DNA from: Paenibacillus sp. R14(2021)
GTDB taxonomy: Bacteria > Bacillota > Bacilli > Paenibacillales > Paenibacillaceae
Direction of reading: 5' to 3'
Length of the DNA stretch: 64,000 nt
NCBI RefSeq assembly: GCF_019431355.1
Contig: NZ_CP080269.1
Location: forward strand, 1,302,001-1,366,000
The notes below the pieces were generated by a model. That model was not told the origin of the DNA, did not search any database, and saw nothing but the letters and a program-made list of their open reading frames with translations. Both the position numbers and the translations under genes were made by a program. Below are positions 5,239 through 14,033 of this stretch, piece by piece. Positions within the stretch are counted from its first letter, which is position 1. The number at the start of each line of letters is the position of its first letter.

Positions 5239-6810
5239 CTACCGCTTCCGCGAGGTGAGCTTCGCTTGCGTGAACAGCAGCAGGTAATCGTAGCCGCCCG
5301 CCTTGGAATCGGTGCCCGACATATTGAAGCCGCCGAACGGGTGTACGCCGACGAGCGCGCCGGTGCATTTGCGGTTAATGTAGAGATTGCCGCAATGTAC
5401 GGTTTCGAGCGCTTCGGCGATCCTGTCTTCGTCGCTTGAGAAATACGAGCCCGTCAAGCCGAATTCCGTATCGTTGAACATCGCGATCGCTTCCTGCCAG
5501 TCTTTCGCTTTGGCGAGCGCCAGTACCGGCCCGAAGATTTCCTCCTGCATGATGCGGGCTTTGCCGCTTACATCGCCGAAGACCGTCGGAGCAATATAGT
5601 AGCCGTTGCCTTCCGCTTTGGTGCCGCCTGCTAGCAGCGTACCTTCCTGCTTGCCGACCTCGATATAGTCGAGAATGCGGTCGTACGAGGTCTGATCAAT
5701 GACAGGACCTGCAGGGAAATTGAGTTCCGGCAGGCCGGAATGAAGCTGCTTCGTCAGTTCAACGACGCGCTCCGCGACCTGGTCGTAGACGGATTCCACG
5801 ATGATCGCGCGCGAGCCGGCGGAGCATTTCTGGCCTTGGAAGCCGAAGGCCGATGCCACGATCGCCGCGGCAGCGGCTTCGAGATCCGCCGTTTCGTCTA
5901 CGACGATGCCGTCCTTCCCGCCCATCTCCGCGATAACGCGCTTGATCCAGATTTGACCCGGGGCGGTATCGGCCGCCAGCTTATTGATCCGCAGGCCGAC
6001 CTCCTTGGAGCCCGTGAAGCTGATAAACCGCGTTTTCGGATGCGTCGTCAAATAATCGCCGACCTCTGCGCCGCTTCCCGGAATGAAATTGATGACGCCG
6101 GCAGGCAGCCCAACCTCTTCCATCAGCGAGAAGAATCGATGCGCGATCACGGGCGTCGTCGATGCCGGCTTCAGCAGCACCGTATTGCCGGAGACGATCG
6201 CGGCTGTTGTCATGCCGACGCAGATCGCAAGCGGGAAGTTCCACGGCGGAATGATGACACCGACGCCAAGCGGAATATAAGAAATCGCATTGTCTTCCCC
6301 AGGAATCCTCGCCAGCGGCTGTGTTTCGTTGATCTCGCTCAGGCGGATGATTTCCCGCGCGTAGAATTCCATGAAATCGATCGCTTCCGCCGTATCCACG
6401 TCGGCTTCGACGTAGTTCTTGCCGGATTCAAGCAGCATCAGCGCGGAGAATTCATGCTTGCGCTCGCGCATCAGCTTAGCGGCCTTGAACAGATATTCCG
6501 CACGCTCACGGACAGGGACTCTTTTCCAAGTCTCGAACGTCTTCAGCGCGGCCTGCATGGCTTCTTCCGCCAACTGCTGATCAGCTTTGCTGACATAGCC
6601 GATTACCTCATCGATGCTGCCTGGGTTGATTGAGGTAATTTTGGCTTCCGTCTCGATCTTGCGCCCCCCGATCGTCAAGGGATAGCTGCCGCCCAGCTCC
6701 GATCTTACTTTGACAATCGCCGCTTCCATTGCCTCGATATTCGCTTTAAGTCCAAAGTTCGTGAAAGGCTCGTTAGCGTAAGGCTTCACTTCGGTAAATG
6801 ATGTTGTCAT
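5239..6810 (-). CDS. pruA: L-glutamate gamma-semialdehyde (1-pyrroline-5-carboxylate) dehydrogenase
   Basis: This 523-residue aldehyde dehydrogenase of the RocA/PruA type oxidises glutamate semialdehyde to glutamate, the last shared step of proline and arginine breakdown. Motifs seen are [30 protein letters not shown] with the general-base Glu, and [13 protein letters not shown] with the catalytic Cys. GAGAGGAG seven bases upstream supports the ATG at 6810 over an in-frame TTG two codons earlier. It follows proline dehydrogenase by 31 bp on the same strand, so the two form an operon. Its aldehyde substrate can come from proline (this operon) or from ornithine (the rocD gene at 10.8-12.0 kb). 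Confidence 0.95.
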
Positions 6811-6841
6811 CGTCAAGCTCCTCTCCCAAGTCGGGTTTCGT

Positions 6842-7756
6842 TTATTTCAACATGTTCTTGAGCACGAACCATACGTTAGCGGGCCGTTCCGCGAGCCGTC
6901 GCATGAAATAGCCGAACCAATCGACGCCGTACGGCACGTAGACGCGGACGCGGTACCCTTCCTGAACGAGCTGCTTCTGAAGATCTTCACAAATTCCGTA
7001 GAGCATCTGAAATTCAAAGGCATCCTTGGAAATGCCTTGTTCACGGACAAAGTCCTTCGTAAAGTTGATGATCGCCTCGTCATGGCTCGCGACCGCCGCA
7101 TAATTGCCATTCATCAGATGCAGGCGAATAATGCGCTTCAAATTCTCGTCGACATCCTTCTTCTCCGGGAATGCGACATCTGCGGATTCTTTGTACGCGC
7201 CTTTGACGAGCCTCAGATTAGCCTTCAGCCCGTTCAAGTCCGTCACGTCCTGCACCGTACGATATAGGTAGGCTTGAATGACGATGCCGACGTTGTCGTA
7301 CTGCTCGCGCAGCTCCCGATAAATATCGAGCGAAACCTGGCAATGCGCGTAATCCTCCATATCGATCCGGACAAAATTGTTATGGCTGCGTGCCCGGCTC
7401 AGAATCCGCTTCATGTTGTTCACGCAGAGCTCCCTGTTAATATCGAGACCGAGCGACGTCATCTTCAGCGACAGATTCGACGTCACGCCCGACTCGGCGA
7501 TCGCGTCCAGCGTCTGCATGCACATATTCGCCGACTCTTCCGCTTCCTCGCTGCTGAACACGAATTCCCCCAGGTGATCGAGCGTCGCCATTCGTCCGTC
7601 TTCGTTCAGCCTGCGCACGGCATCGATGGACTGCTTGATCGTCTCGCCTGCGACGAAGCGCGCCGCGCCGAATCGAAGCCCGTATTTCTTGGCCAGCCGA
7701 TTCGCGGAGCGGCTCTTACCGAGCGCTTGAAACATGTTCTTGAGGAGCATATCCAT
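6842..7756 (-). CDS. Proline dehydrogenase (FAD-dependent, monofunctional)
   Basis: A monofunctional Bacillus-type proline dehydrogenase of 304 residues that passes electrons from proline to FAD and the quinone pool, giving P5C. Family marks include [22 protein letters not shown] and EFQMLYG, and a C-terminal [20 protein letters not shown] block that lines the FAD/substrate pocket. The ATG at 7756 has TTGGAGG eight bases upstream; the frame is open to 7849 but without a ribosome site. It is first in the operon with P5C dehydrogenase and divergent from a RocR-like regulator. A TATAAT -10 and several dyads lie in the shared intergenic region. Confidence 0.94.
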
Positions 7757-7912: not shown

Positions 7913-7968
7913 CCCCTTCCGCCGCATGTTACATTTATTTCATACTACGACCTATTGTGAGGATAACT

Positions 7969-9744
7969 ATGTTTAAACTTGAACAGCTCCCGTTGAACAC
8001 CTGCTTTACTTTGCTTCAACCGGATGCGACGATACAGCAGCTTGTCGACGTGTTAGAACAAGGCCAGGCTGCCATGATAACAACCGGCCAGCCGGGAAAC
8101 CAAGCGATTCTGGTTCTTCCGGGCGAGGCTGCCTTTATTCGAAGCTGCTTTGCCGCGCATAAGGCGGCATCCGCTGCGACGCAGTTAGGGGATTCCCCGT
8201 TCGTGTCGTTTATCTTGAAGCAAGAAGCCGAGCTTCTCGAAGATATGATGTTCTCGCGTCTCTTATCGACCAATCGTCCACTAATCTTTGCAGACGAAGA
8301 CGGCCTGATGATTGGTTTTATTCAGCTGTCGGAGCTGCTTCTGCATGCCGAAACTGAGCGGCAGCGGTGGCAGACTTATTTTGCAACATTGTCGGAGACG
8401 GTTACGGATGCGGTGACGGTCGTCGACCGCGATGGCGAGGTTATTTGCTGGAATCCAATAGCGGAGGAAATTTACGATTTGCCGAAGCGCGATATATTGG
8501 GCCGTCGGATCGGCGAGCATTTTGAAACGGAGACCCTTATGGTGCTCAAGATTCTGGATGAAGGTCGTATGATTCGCAACACCTACCATCGCCCGCGCGA
8601 AGATACACATGTACTTATTAATGCTTCGCCTATCCGCGATGTGCATGGCGCCATCATCGGAGGCATAGCGGCGGAGCAGGATATTACGCAGCTCGTTCGC
8701 CTGAATGAGCAGCTTACGTCCGCGCATACCTTCTCGCATCAGACAAAAACCGAGAATAAGGAGTTGTTCTCGCTCATCAAGGGCAAAGGTCCGGCAATTG
8801 CCAAAGTCATTCAATGGGCCAGGAAAGTAGCCGTGACGGATACGCCCGTTCTTCTGGTCGGTGAAGGCGGCTCCGGCAAGGAGCAGCTCGCGCAAATCAT
8901 TCACCATGCGAGTTCACGATCGGACGAAGTGTTCCTCTCCGTGAATTGCGGTATCGTACCGATGGGACTGCTGGAAGCGGAGCTGTTCGGCTTCCAAGGC
9001 GGCACCTTCTCCGGCAGTCATGGCGGAGAGGCGGGCAAGCTGGAGCAGGCTAAGGACGGCACGCTCTTCCTGAACGAGATCGACCGGTTATCACTGGAGC
9101 TTCAAGCCAAGCTGTACCATTACTTGATGCAGCAGACGATTACGCGAACAGGCGGCAGCAGGCCTATTGCGGTGCAGACGCGGATCATCGCCGCTTCGAC
9201 GGAGAATCTGGCCGCCAAGGTCGAGGAAGGCAGCTTCCGGGCTGATTTGTACTACGCGCTTAATGTCGTGTCGATTGCGCTTCCGCCGCTGCGGGATCGA
9301 AGCGAGGATATTCCCGCGATGATTCAGATGTACTTGAAGCAGTTCTCGCTGCAATACCAGAAGCCGCTTCCGTCCTTGGCGCCGGAGGTTATGCTGGCCT
9401 TCACCAATTACGGCTGGCCGGGCAACCTGCTCGAGCTGCGCAATACGGTGGAACGCTGCGTCATCCTTTGCGATGACGATCTCATTACGATGGAGCAGCT
9501 GCCCCCGGTGCTCCAAGAGCAGCAGCAGAGCCTTGCGCCGTACGGCCGGGACGCCGAGGGGAATCCAGCAGCCAGCGCTACGGCGGACAAACCGCTGAAG
9601 GCTAGCGTTAACGAATCGGAGGAGCAAGCGCTTATCCATGAAGCACTGTCCAAGACGGCTGGCAATAAGAGTGCGGCAGCCAAGCTGCTCGGTGTATCCC
9701 GCGGTACCTTGTACAACAAAATGAAAGAATACGGTCTGGCGTAG
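7969..9744 (+). CDS. RocR-like PAS/AAA+/Fis transcriptional regulator with degenerate catalytic motifs
   Basis: This 591-residue protein has the layout of a sigma-54 activator of the RocR class. It has an N-terminal CBS-like region (about 1-130), a PAS domain (about 135-245, TVVDRDGEVICWN), an AAA+ domain (about 265-505) and a C-terminal Fis helix-turn-helix (NKSAAAKLLGVSRGTLYNKM). Walker A GEGGSGKE with Lys304 is present. Walker B reads GTLFLNEID, with Asn369 for the catalytic Asp. The sigma-54 contact loop GAFTGA is GTFSGS (345-350). The usual arginine-finger position in DLYYRLN is Ala430. ATP hydrolysis and sigma-54 activation are therefore doubtful. GAGGA seven bases before the ATG sets the start. 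It is divergent from the proline operon, which it probably controls. Confidence 0.85.
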   Translation: MFKLEQLPLNTCFTLLQPDATIQQLVDVLEQGQAAMITTGQPGNQAILVLPGEAAFIRSCFAAHKAASAATQLGDSPFVSFILKQEAELLEDMMFSRLLSTNRPLIFADEDGLMIGFIQLSELLLHAETERQRWQTYFATLSETVTDAVTVVDRDGEVICWNPIAEEIYDLPKRDILGRRIGEHFETETLMVLKILDEGRMIRNTYHRPREDTHVLINASPIRDVHGAIIGGIAAEQDITQLVRLNEQLTSAHTFSHQTKTENKELFSLIKGKGPAIAKVIQWARKVAVTDTPVLLVGEGGSGKEQLAQIIHHASSRSDEVFLSVNCGIVPMGLLEAELFGFQGGTFSGSHGGEAGKLEQAKDGTLFLNEIDRLSLELQAKLYHYLMQQTITRTGGSRPIAVQTRIIAASTENLAAKVEEGSFRADLYYALNVVSIALPPLRDRSEDIPAMIQMYLKQFSLQYQKPLPSLAPEVMLAFTNYGWPGNLLELRNTVERCVILCDDDLITMEQLPPVLQEQQQSLAPYGRDAEGNPAASATADKPLKASVNESEEQALIHEALSKTAGNKSAAAKLLGVSRGTLYNKMKEYGLA

Positions 9745-9800: not shown

Positions 9801-9854
9801 AAACAGCCGCAGCGGACGCGATCCTGTCAGGATCGTACTCCGCTGCGGCTGTTT
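9801..9854. terminator. Bidirectional hairpin terminator
   Basis: Sixteen-base perfect arms AAACAGCCGCAGCGGA (9801-9816) and its complement (9839-9854) enclose a further CGATCCTG/CAGGATCG hairpin. It lies between the convergent regulator gene (ends 9744) and the arginase-like gene (ends 9860). The A- and T-rich edges suit termination in both directions. Confidence 0.85.
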
Positions 9855-9859
9855 GCCGT

Positions 9860-10771
9860 CTATAGAATGCGTTTGCCGAGCAGCGATGCAATAAGTCCGA
9901 TCGCCAATCTGGCCGTTCTTCTGCTCTCGTCTAGCATGGCGTTCACTTCCACCATGTCAATGGAGATGATTCGTCCTGCTTCCGCAAGCAATTCGCAGGC
10001 GAAATGCGCCTCGCGGTATGTAAGCCCGCCTGGCACCTGCATGCCAACGCCGGGCGCTTCGAGCGGGTCCAGACAATCCGCGGAGAAGCTGACGTGGATG
10101 CCGTCCGTGCCGTCCCCTGCAATTTCGACGGCCTTGCGGACAACCTGCTCGATTCCCATGCGGTCGATTTCGTGCATCGTGAATACCGTGATACCCTCCG
10201 CCAGAATCAGCTCTCGCTCATCCGGCTCCACGTCGCGAACGCCGATCAGCACGACGTTTTGTTTCTTGACGGCACCGCCTTGAACAGCTGGGGCGAGGTC
10301 CGACAGCCGCAGCTTTGCATGACCGAGCGCAACGGCGAGCGACATGCCGCCGAGACTGCCGGTCGGGCTGTTCGCTTCCGTATTCATGCCGGCATGTGCG
10401 TCGAAATAAATAATGCCGATGCTGCGTTTCTGCGAAGCCATTCCTGCCAGAGCGCCGATCGTCACGCTGTGATCGCCGCCGAGCACGAGCGGAATCTCTC
10501 CGTCCGCAGCGGAGCGTGAGACATGCTCCGCCACCTGTTTGCACATTTCCATCACTTCAGGAAGATGCTTGACATGACCGTCCTTGGATGCCGGCTGACC
10601 GGGCTGTAATTTGACTTTCACTTTGACGTCATGCGTGAGCTCGTATGCGGTTTTGCGGATTTGACGCAGAAGACCGGCTTGTATCATCGACTCCGGTCCC
10701 TCTTCGTTCCCCGGTCTGCTCGCGCCAAGTCCGAACGGGACTTGAATCAGGCTTAATTTGGCCATGCGCAT
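9860..10771 (-). CDS. Arginase-family paralog lacking metal and catalytic residues (likely pseudoenzyme)
   Basis: A 303-residue ureohydrolase-fold protein, similar in length to arginase. GGDHSVTIG keeps the His at residue 101. DAHAGMNT at 124-131 has Gly128 where arginases have a manganese-binding Asp. The loop SLGGM has Gly141 for the proton-shuttle His. SFSADCLDP has Ser230 in place of the first Asp of the second DxD metal motif. So two of the six usual metal ligands and the shuttle His are missing, and arginine hydrolysis is unlikely. AAGGA six bases before the ATG at 10771 supports the start. It is the last gene of an operon with a complete arginase and ornithine aminotransferase, so a structural or regulatory partner role is plausible. 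Confidence 0.85.
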   Translation of the reverse strand: MRMAKLSLIQVPFGLGASRPGNEEGPESMIQAGLLRQIRKTAYELTHDVKVKVKLQPGQPASKDGHVKHLPEVMEMCKQVAEHVSRSAADGEIPLVLGGDHSVTIGALAGMASQKRSIGIIYFDAHAGMNTEANSPTGSLGGMSLAVALGHAKLRLSDLAPAVQGGAVKKQNVVLIGVRDVEPDERELILAEGITVFTMHEIDRMGIEQVVRKAVEIAGDGTDGIHVSFSADCLDPLEAPGVGMQVPGGLTYREAHFACELLAEAGRIISIDMVEVNAMLDESRRTARLAIGLIASLLGKRIL

Positions 10772-10792: not shown

Positions 10793-11983
10793 TTAAAATA
10801 GCTGCTTGATCCGCGCGAACGCCCAATCGAGCTGTTCCCGCGTTATCGTAAGCGGCGGTGCAAAACGAATCGTCGATTCATGTGTTTCCTTGCACAGAAG
10901 GCCCAGTTCCTTGAGCTTCTCGCAGTACGGACGGGCCTTGCCGTTAAGCTCCAGCCCGATGAACAACCCCCGGCCGCGAATTTCCTTAATGGCCGGATCG
11001 TCCAAGCTGCGCAGAAGCGACAGGAAATAGGTCCCGAGCTCGTTGGAACGGCTGACCAGCTCCTCCTCCGCCAAGACGTCAAGGGCCGCGATTGCCGTCG
11101 CGCATCCGAGGGGATTTCCGCCGAAGGTCGAGCCGTGCGAACCAGGCTCGAATACGCCTAGAATCGATTCATTCGCGGCAACCGCCGAGATTGGGAACAC
11201 GCCGCCTCCCAGCGCTTTGCCCATGATATACATATCCGGCACTACGCCTTCCCAATAGCAGGCGAACATTCGGCCGGTCCTGCCAAAGCCCGTCTGAATC
11301 TCATCGGCCGCGAACAGCACGTTTTCCTGCTTGCACAGCTCGCTTGCCGCTTTCAGGAAGCCCTCCGGCGGGATGATGATCCCAGCTTCGCCTTGAATCG
11401 GCTCTACTAGGAAAGCAGCCGTGTTCGGTGTGATCGCCGCCCGCAATGCATCGATATCGCCGTATGGAATGATGCGGAAACCTGGCGTGAACGGGCCGAA
11501 TCCTGCTTTGTATTCCTCTGATGACGAGAAAGAAGTCACCGTAATCGTTCGGCCATGAAAGTTGCCCTCGCAAACGATGATTTCGGCTTGATCGACTGGC
11601 ACCTTCTTCACGTTATACGCCCAGCGGCGGACGGCTTTAAGTGCTGTTTCCACGGCCTCGGCACCAGTGTTCATGGGCAGAATCATGCTTTTTCCGGTCA
11701 CCGCCGACAGCTTCTCGTAGAAGATGCCCAGCTGATCATTATGAAAGGCTCGCGAGGTTAGCGTGACCTTGTCCGCCTGTTCCTTCAAGGCGGCGATAAT
11801 GCGGGGATGGCGATGGCCGTGATTCAGCGCCGAATACGCACTGAGCATATCCATGTAGCGGTTGCGGTCTGGATCTTCCACCCATACGCCTTCGGCTTTC
11901 GAGATGACGATTGGCAGCGGATGATAATTATGCGCGCCGAAACGCTCCGTTTGCTCGATAATCCGGCTTGTCGTACCGTCCAT
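10793..11983 (-). CDS. rocD: Ornithine aminotransferase
   Basis: A class III PLP-dependent aminotransferase of 396 residues that moves the delta-amino group of ornithine to 2-oxoglutarate, giving glutamate semialdehyde and glutamate. Marks are [12 protein letters not shown] for cofactor phosphate binding, [26 protein letters not shown] with the PLP-ring Asp, and [13 protein letters not shown] with the Schiff-base Lys. GAGAGGAG lies nine bases before the ATG. The gene starts 29 bp after the arginase stop and ends 21 bp before the arginase-like paralog, so one transcript covers the arginine route to glutamate semialdehyde. P5C dehydrogenase at 5.2-6.8 kb completes the path. Confidence 0.95.
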
Positions 11984-12012: not shown

Positions 12013-12924
12013 CTATAGTATTCGTTCTCCGAAAACGGAGCCGATAAGCTCCACCGCCGTGTTGGCTGTTTTGTTATGCTGATCCAGCACCGGATTCAAT
12101 TCTACGATTTCCGCGGATACGAGTATATCTCGTTCGAACAGCAGCTCCATGGCAAAATGGCACTCCCGATACGACATCCCGCCCGAAACCGGCGTCCCTA
12201 CGCCTGGCGCATCGCCGGGGTCCATGCCGTCCAAATCGAGGCTGAGATGAACGCCGTCCGTTCCGTTCGTGACGATATCCATCGCCTCTTCCATGACCTG
12301 CTTCATGCCGTTCCGGTCGATATCATGCATTGTGAACACCCGGATGCCCTTCTCTTTCAGGAAAGCACGCTCGCCTGGATCAATGGAACGCGCGCCGATG
12401 ATCACGACATTCTCCGGCAGAAGCTTCGTTTCGGCGCCGCCGATCGAGGTCAAGTCTTGGTGTCCGAAGCCGAGCGGCGCGGCAAGCGACATGCCGTGGA
12501 TATTGCCGGAGCCCGTCGTCTGTTCCGTGTTCACGTCCGTGTGGGCATCGAACCAGATAACGCCTAGACGCTTGACATGTTGAAGAACACCCTTGATTGT
12601 TCCGATTGCAATGCTATGATCACCGCCTAGTACCAGCGGGAATTGTCCCTTGCTCATTTCTTCGGCGACCGTGTCGCAGAGCTGTCGATTGACTTTCACG
12701 ATCTCGTCCAGATACTTCAGCTTCTCGCCCGGCTTGGCAGGCTGAAGCGACCTGCTGACCGATAGATCCCCTAAATCCGATAATTGATAGCCGAGCACGC
12801 TCAGCCGTTCATGAAGGTTTGCGCCGCGAATCCCCCCGGGGCCCATGTCCACGCCCTCGCGATCGGCACCATAATGCAGCGGTACGCCGATAATCGAGAT
12901 GTTCTTATTATTCACCGCATTCAT
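12013..12924 (-). CDS. rocF: Arginase (complete catalytic site)
   Basis: A 303-residue arginase that splits arginine into ornithine and urea with a binuclear manganese centre. All ligand motifs are intact: [17 protein letters not shown] starting at residue 126, NIHGM with the catalytic His, and [15 protein letters not shown] eight bases upstream supports the ATG at 12924 rather than the in-frame codon three positions earlier. It heads an operon with rocD and a degenerate arginase paralog and lies downstream of a LysR-type regulator on the same strand. The urea produced has no urease visible in this window; urea carboxylase-type genes lie at 34.8-41.8 kb. Confidence 0.94.
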
Positions 12925-13157: not shown

Positions 13158-14033
13158 CTAGTTCCATTCCTTCCAAATGCGCTGGACGATTTCCGCGAAG
13201 GAATGAATGTTCTGCTCGTCGATTCGTTTCTTCAAGATAACCATGTTCGTCTCAATCTTGCCGGGGAAGCGGTGAATTTCGGCCAGCGTCCCCTTGCGCA
13301 GTTCGTCTTCCACAAGCGCGGAGCCAAGCAGCGCAATGCCGGTGTGGTAGAGAACCGTCCGTTTGATCGTCTCATCCGAGACGCATTCGATATATTTATC
13401 GGGCAGAATCCCGTATTCATGCAGACATTCGTTCATCAGCCGCTGTATGTTGGAGCCTGATTTGTACGTAATGAACGGATAGGTCTCGAGAAGCGTACGG
13501 ACATCGTGCTTCTCTCGCAGCTCCTTCGTGGTGACGAGAACAAGATCTTCCCTGCCGAGCGGCATCGTCTCCATGAGCGGCGATTCGCAGGGGCCGGCGA
13601 TGATCGCCAAATCCGCTTCATTGGAGGCGACCTTACGCATCGCATCGTTGCTGTCGCAGGAGAACAGCTGCAGCTTTACGTTCGGATTCTGCGAAATATA
13701 GGAATGAATGATTAACGATAAGTACTGCGTGCAATAAAATTCCGGCGCTGCCACCGTCAGCAGCCCGTGCGGATTGTCCAGCTTGCGCAGCTCGACTTCC
13801 ATCTCCTCCATCAAGGCGAAGGTTTGGTCCACGTACTGTTTCACCAGCTTGCCGGCAGGCGTCAAATAGGTCTTCTTCCCGGTTCGCCCAAGCAGGGTCA
13901 CGCCAAGCTCACTCTCAAGCGATTGCAGCTGAAGCGTAATTGTCGGCTGCGTATAGCCGAGCTGATCCGCGGCGCGAGTCAAGTTGAGCGTGTCTGCAAC
14001 GACTTGAAACGTCTTGTACTTCTTGAAATCCAT
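13158..14033 (-). CDS. LysR family transcriptional regulator
   Basis: A 291-residue LysR-type regulator. The N-terminal winged helix-turn-helix (about 1-60) reads FKKYKTFQVVADTLNLTRAA then GYTQPTITLQLQSLE. The rest is a periplasmic-binding-protein-like effector domain starting near GLLTVAAPEFY. AAGGAAG about ten bases before the ATG marks the start. It has its own terminator and lies upstream of the arginase-rocD operon in the same orientation, so it is a candidate regulator of that operon. The effector cannot be deduced. Confidence 0.88.
   Translation of the reverse strand: MDFKKYKTFQVVADTLNLTRAADQLGYTQPTITLQLQSLESELGVTLLGRTGKKTYLTPAGKLVKQYVDQTFALMEEMEVELRKLDNPHGLLTVAAPEFYCTQYLSLIIHSYISQNPNVKLQLFSCDSNDAMRKVASNEADLAIIAGPCESPLMETMPLGREDLVLVTTKELREKHDVRTLLETYPFITYKSGSNIQRLMNECLHEYGILPDKYIECVSDETIKRTVLYHTGIALLGSALVEDELRKGTLAEIHRFPGKIETNMVILKKRIDEQNIHSFAEIVQRIWKEWN

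Follow-up and report, generated by a model that had tools for sequence, protein, structure and literature searches.

Behind its complete arginase gene rocF and the presumed ornithine aminotransferase gene rocD, Paenibacillus sp. R14(2021) keeps a third gene whose product is built like an arginase and lacks a substantial part of the arginase active site. We call this product a pseudo-arginase. It belongs to a single clade of such proteins with at least 30 members in three bacterial families, most of them encoded beside a canonical rocF, and it evolves under purifying selection. In our preferred reading, to which we give about an even chance by analogy with a known pseudo-subunit, the older arginase of the operon would have turned into a non-catalytic protein that assembles with RocF to stabilise or tune it.

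The gene and its operon

The window, by which we mean the whole stretch of 64,000 nucleotides analysed here, comes from a genome of 5.98 Mb in one contig, and the named close relatives of the source found by sequence search are Paenibacillus species and Gordonibacillus kamchatkensis. The pseudo-arginase gene (9860..10771, minus strand) was recognised by ORF reading, by the profiles PF00491 and TIGR01229, and by an AF2 model; it encodes 303 amino acids with no internal stop. A ribosome-binding site, AAGGAAGG, lies 7 nt ahead of its ATG, and the gene stands 21 nt downstream of rocD (10793..11983, minus strand), which the ORF list and a family profile search identify as a class III aminotransferase, presumably ornithine aminotransferase. 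In turn, rocD is downstream of rocF (12013..12924, minus strand), the gene for a complete arginase of 303 amino acids according to its residues, profile searches, and an AF2 model with a pLDDT of 90.8. Immediately 3' of the pseudo-arginase stop there is a strong hairpin followed by UUUUAUUUU, a terminator-like arrangement of hairpin and U-run (9802..9857, minus strand) found by folding. The hairpin reaches -45 kcal/mol over 88 nt (z -7.0; none of 200 shuffles was equally low), and a weaker form of it also appeared in a separate scan of the window. Therefore, the pseudo-arginase is probably the last gene of the rocF-rocD unit. A preliminary description of this DNA had called the gene open, well started, and part of one operon with a complete arginase two genes upstream, and these features agree with it on every point.

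Locus comparison and profile searches place three further conserved neighbours around the unit, all on the minus strand: a proline dehydrogenase gene (6842..7756), a gene for an aldehyde dehydrogenase family protein, presumed to be P5C dehydrogenase (5239..6816), and a LysR-type regulator gene upstream of rocF (13158..14033). A sigma54-type, RocR-like activator gene (7957..9744, plus strand), recognised by profile search and ortholog comparison, is convergent with the pseudo-arginase gene. The order rocF, rocD, pseudo-arginase, opposite-strand activator, proline dehydrogenase, P5C dehydrogenase recurs in nine of the 12 other carriers in the genus; the remaining three (G003, G008, and G017) show the same order, except that no activator gene was found at their locus.

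We number residues as in human arginase, so that Ser230, Glu182, and Met244 of the window protein correspond to positions 232, 183, and 246. Compared with the co-operonic RocF, in which all checked catalytic and metal residues are present, the pseudo-arginase has Gly128 and Gly141, Glu in place of Asp183, Ser in place of Asp232, and Met in place of Thr246. Among the metal ligands (H101, D124, H126, D128, D232, and D234) D128 and D232 are missing; His101, Asp124, His126, and Asp234 are retained, as is Glu277, and the HDAC-like Asp-His-Asp set of site B (D124, H126, and D234) is present. We take His141 to be the proton shuttle of arginase, and D183 and T246 to be substrate residues. Because metal site A, the proton-shuttle histidine, and the substrate residues are lost, it is very unlikely, judging from the sequence, that the protein is an ordinary arginase. 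The preliminary description had reported an arginase fold with His101 kept and with Gly128, Gly141, and Ser230, and had regarded the protein as degenerate for the arginase reaction. Residue comparison bears out its coordinates and numbering, RocF has every residue that it listed, and the changes of Asp183 and Thr246 now join those of Asp128, Asp232, and His141.

The pseudo-arginase scores 232.3 bits against PF00491 (cut-off 22) and 266.4 bits against TIGR01229, above the cut-off of 227.6; the tested members from family f7 and genus g37 fall slightly below the latter, at 226.1 and 222.6 bits. Its AF2 model (pLDDT 92.1) predicts a complete arginase fold, with a TM of 0.93 to 2cev, the arginase of B. 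caldovelox. Since the NCBIfam profile TIGR01229 accepts the window protein, annotation pipelines are likely to name it arginase in genome records.

The arginases of Bacillus (RocF; 1CEV/2CEV, 6NFP, and 6NBK) share this fold (TM 0.90-0.93) and 38 to 42 percent identity with the window protein, which differs from them in lacking Asp128, Asp232, His141, Asp183, and Thr246. Mothersole (2022) is said to describe a Fusobacteriaceae arginase domain in which a metal-binding Asp is replaced or the function lost, in a fused protein and not in a separate operon partner. The passages of PMC8503589 that we cite concern an ornithine decarboxylase fusion whose bacterial arginase domain has likewise had a metal-binding Asp replaced or its function lost, again fused instead of being an operon partner. 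An arginase-like protein of Trypanosoma brucei, as summarised from Hai (2015), has the arginase fold without the binuclear Mn cluster and is inactive; that case is eukaryotic, from a parasite in which, by the same summary, arginase activity was not detected, whereas the window gene shares an operon with an intact arginase. PMC5454378 also uses the name "pseudo-arginase" for a clade in one of its figure legends, and the likeness to our clade, as far as the legend goes, is one of name. In the open-licence literature we found no published description of the present lineage.

One clade, its constraint, and its origin

The genome searches used three overlapping sets, with 394 genomes at the level of the family, 392 sampled at that of the order, and 299 at that of the class, and degenerate copies were also looked for beside RocF genes. 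They yielded 220 distinct rows of arginase-type sequences for scoring, of which five were cut by locus ends and 215 were complete; two near-duplicates were merged to leave 213 distinct cores. All counts refer to sequences in hand, some matches being unread (mainly in genus g6, also in g5, g13, g12, and g34), and a look beside 20 RocF genes for degenerate copies missed by the 1e-92 cut found one more (G078), so that the number of pseudo-arginases is at least 30. All eight scored residues are present in 183 of the 213 cores, and the 30 cores that do not have them all are exactly the pseudo-arginase set.

In a tree of 82 rows, 29 degenerate sequences form one clade (support 100/97), and they still form one branch (SH-aLRT 94) after the active-site columns are removed; the 30th member (L276) was found after tree building and is absent from every tree. 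The transformation into a pseudo-arginase was probably one event in a common ancestor. Independent losses across lineages are unsupported, since the sequences group together whether or not the active-site columns are included, and a lone case or a sequencing error is ruled out by the 30 members and by the same substitutions in every carrier of the genus.

The carriers belong to families f1, f6, and f7 of the order, and 13 of the 22 genomes in the genus search carry a pseudo-arginase. D128G, H141G, D183E, and D232S are common to all 13, and in three of them His101 has become Arg. All 30 pseudo-arginases have a broken metal site A. In every one of them Asp128 has given way to Gly, Ser, or Thr and His141 to Asn or Gly, and Thr246 has likewise gone. 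Ten members retain Asp232 and 20 do not, and Glu replaces D183 in 22. The three site-B ligands Asp124, His126, and Asp234 are all retained in 26 members (D234 in all 30), and E277 in 28. The four members from family f7 (L049, L171, L172, and L173) are located outside the roc operon and are more degraded, with Q101, T124, Y126, G128, N141, and S or A at 232, which means that His101, Asp124, and His126 have additionally gone. At L171 and L172 a panE-like gene and a cation-efflux-like gene, ORFs labelled by eye, are nearby. For three of the four pseudo-arginases not beside rocF, RocF is encoded elsewhere in the genome; it was not found in the f7 genome G423, which is 81 percent complete.

Two groups of matches from further afield were considered as members and rejected. 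Among the 299 class genomes, the three matches from outside the order (E about 1e-93) have all eight scored residues intact. Bacteroidetes supplied 37 of 50 matches, mostly at 27-31 percent; the nine that were aligned have all metal ligands and His141, differ in carrying His130 and Glu183, and look like ordinary enzymes.

With saturated pairs left out, median dN/dS is 0.139 for the pseudo-arginases (54 of 78 pairs, pS < 0.7) and 0.091 for RocF (73 of 78 pairs). The former value indicates purifying selection, as had been supposed when the gene was described as kept by selection. From residue 181 onwards, proteins of the genus are about 88-93 percent identical to the window pseudo-arginase. We call a position released when it is fixed in all 33 intact sister-type relatives and falls below 65 percent in the 30 pseudo-arginases. 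The released positions are H101, W122, D128, N130, H141, G142, D183, D232, and T246, together with two insertion columns, and they are variable, with five states at N130 and seven at T246. All nine non-insertion positions are at or next to the active site; by these thresholds, the relaxed constraint is limited to the active site. Arg36, Arg284, Arg285, Gly292, and Lys300 are among the residues that are invariant in the pseudo-arginases and not in their relatives, which is partly expected by descent, the clade being younger than the comparison group. D204, R255, E256, and E262, intersubunit contacts placed by counting from motifs, are retained in all 30 pseudo-arginases and equally in every intact arginase tabulated. 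Such retention points to a capacity to oligomerise and is silent on the identity of the partner.

The preliminary description had proposed looking for a clade with the same substitutions near rocF-rocD. Such a clade exists in the 29 rows mentioned above, and a canonical rocF adjoins the pseudo-arginase in 26 of the 30. Within the genus, as well as in seven genomes of f6, rocD stands between rocF and the adjoining pseudo-arginase; in four genomes of g12 the P5C dehydrogenase gene comes between rocD and the pseudo-arginase; and in G425 and G435 the pseudo-arginase is directly behind rocF, with rocD 4.8 and 6.1 kb distant. The RocF clade associated with the pseudo-arginases has 34 members, of which eight are without a pseudo-arginase neighbour. 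These eight are intact and fall into two groups, one of seven genomes and the other consisting of G061; RocF therefore does not strictly need the pseudo-arginase. If the ancestor of this clade carried a pseudo-arginase, it would have been lost at least twice.

We read 54 loci of intact arginases; by best match, 51 belong to the sister type and three are nearer RocF. In 41 of them rocD is within 1.5 kb, and none of the 54 has a second arginase within the stretch read. Because the nearest intact relatives are mostly beside rocD without RocF, the pseudo-arginase looks like the displaced ancestral arginase of the operon. In the simplest history, the older arginase would have stayed in place while RocF arrived alongside as a second arginase; RocF would then have assumed catalysis, and the older protein would have persisted as a pseudoenzyme.

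Two RocF columns separate genomes with the neighbour from those without it, namely position 292 and a site near the N-terminus at which a Ser is inserted. At position 292, a C-terminal column, all 30 pseudo-arginases have Gly, and RocF has Glu in 25 of 26 genomes with a pseudo-arginase neighbour and Asp in all seven of the neighbour-less subclade. The pattern at 292 is possibly chance, and the RocF contrast is too thin to build on, since the seven neighbour-less genomes are one clade.

Possible roles beside RocF

Arginase is usually homo-oligomeric, and a 2014 paper by Garcia reportedly claims, in its title, an allosteric site at the arginase subunit interface. In rat arginase, according to passages of PMC7925462, Arg308 forms bridges with Glu262 and with Asp204 of the adjoining subunit; an arginine molecule occupies the same interface region in 3CEV (B. 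caldovelox arginase). From these reports and the retained interface residues, we expect the pseudo-arginase to oligomerise. In the preferred reading the retained trimer interface would let it join RocF as a non-catalytic subunit, by analogy with MetCb; the assembly would stabilise RocF or set its response to arginine, and the mixed interface would carry residues of the arginine site. The preliminary description had suggested mixed hexamers that tune the active enzyme, for example by sensing arginine, ornithine, or glutamine, and alternatively an altered metal site with a new substrate. Mixed hexamers are made plausible by metformin hydrolase, which it did not mention and which, in the cited passages, illustrates that the active member of a ureohydrolase pair can depend on its pseudo-subunit (PMC11271267, PMC11399263). 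Formation of one clade, linkage to rocF, loss of constraint at the active site, and low dN/dS all favour a partner of RocF; against it stand the eight of 34 RocFs in the clade that lack the neighbour, and the f7 copies outside the roc operon.

Like the window protein, the MetCb/MefH beta subunit is, in the same passages, an arginase-family pseudoenzyme beside an active paralog, with metal ligands lost (PMC11271267, PMC11399263). The differences are considerable. As described there, the metformin hydrolase pairs are Ni enzymes from Proteobacteria, Actinomycetota, and two other phyla, mostly near nickel-chaperone genes, whereas a scan of ten window proteins gave no match to nickel chaperone families (and for one of the ten no match of any kind). 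MetCb has lost five of six ligands and the window protein two of six, and the sequence match between these pairs and the window protein is weak (8ryi_C, E 1.4e-15, versus 3e-68 for 1cev). Unlike the metformin hydrolase pair as portrayed in those passages, the pseudo-arginase has as its neighbour a canonical arginase that relatives possess without any pseudo-arginase, which speaks against strict dependence of the MetCaCb type.

The three site-B ligands survive in 26 of the 30 pseudo-arginases, whereas MetCb has shed nearly all of its ligands, and this argues against a pure scaffold. A one-metal enzyme therefore stays a viable rival, though in our estimate a doubtful one: a mononuclear site B (Asp124, His126, and Asp234) would act on another substrate from arginine, ornithine, or proline metabolism. 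The ligands of site B and E277 persist while the released positions vary, and we take site B to be the zinc holder in histone and polyamine deacetylases. The change of D183 to Glu in 22 members is also found in the nine Bacteroidetes relatives with intact metal ligands, so that this change alone does not mean inactivity. On the other hand, 20 of the 30 are without the bridging Asp232, a new conserved residue that might serve as catalytic base was not seen in the pseudo-arginases, and D124 and H126 are themselves lost in family f7. In the parts of the literature cited here, the Zn site of HDACs is described as the conserved counterpart of the MnB site of arginases (PMC5454378), and the ligands of the second metal site are named for zmARG (PMC6988801).

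We consider it unlikely that the protein works apart from RocF, as a homo-oligomeric sensor or moonlighting protein that binds arginine or ornithine and acts on a different partner. The retained arginase fold and interface residues would suit such a protein, as would the persistence of the f7 copies without rocF linkage; the linkage to rocF in 26 of 30, twice with rocD several kb off, does not, and the changes at N130, D183, and T246 make it improbable that arginine would still be bound in the former pocket as it once was. That the gene is a decaying relic without function we consider highly improbable. Eight members of the RocF clade have an intact rocF without this neighbour, and the gene evolves somewhat faster than RocF (0.139 versus 0.091), but the ORFs of about 274-314 amino acids are open in all 30, they have a single origin across three families, and both the dN/dS of 0.139 and the within-genus identity past residue 181 contradict decay. 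We see a slim chance that two of these ideas combine: a one-metal protein would sit in a mixed RocF hexamer, and the intersubunit arginine site would couple the supply of arginine either to a second activity or to the output of RocF. Just as slim is the part of this combination by which the arginase-to-deacetylase step would have been replayed, site A being shed and the three site-B ligands kept. If true, the pseudo-arginase would be a living intermediate of the arginase/HDAC split and, to our knowledge, the pair would be the first hetero-oligomeric true arginase.

Returning to the preferred reading, assembly of the pair would mean that a heteromeric form of arginase exists in these bacteria. 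The sequences also offer a series from enzyme to pseudoenzyme, which runs from intact relatives through the loss of D128, H141, and T246, and then of D232 as well, to the loss of ligands of both metal sites in one family. The series sits mostly in a fixed operon and provides a simple test of whether MetCb-like pseudo-subunits are a general way to regulate ureohydrolases.

The activator next to the operon

The sigma54-type activator of the window carries GTFSGS in place of GAFTGA, while all 11 readable orthologs (11 of 13 loci were read) have GAFTG followed by one residue. Sigma-54 (PF04552) has no match in the source genome. It is also absent from five carriers that form one subclade with the source (G003, G005, G008, G015, and G017) and from seven of the nine non-carriers of the genus, and a sigma-54 promoter scan of the window gave 24 matches against 30 expected by chance. 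In three of the five carriers without sigma-54 the activator is missing at the locus. Decay of the activator after loss of the sigma factor is a suggestion and no stronger than that, because G005 and G015, which are without sigma-54, still keep an activator with GAFTG.
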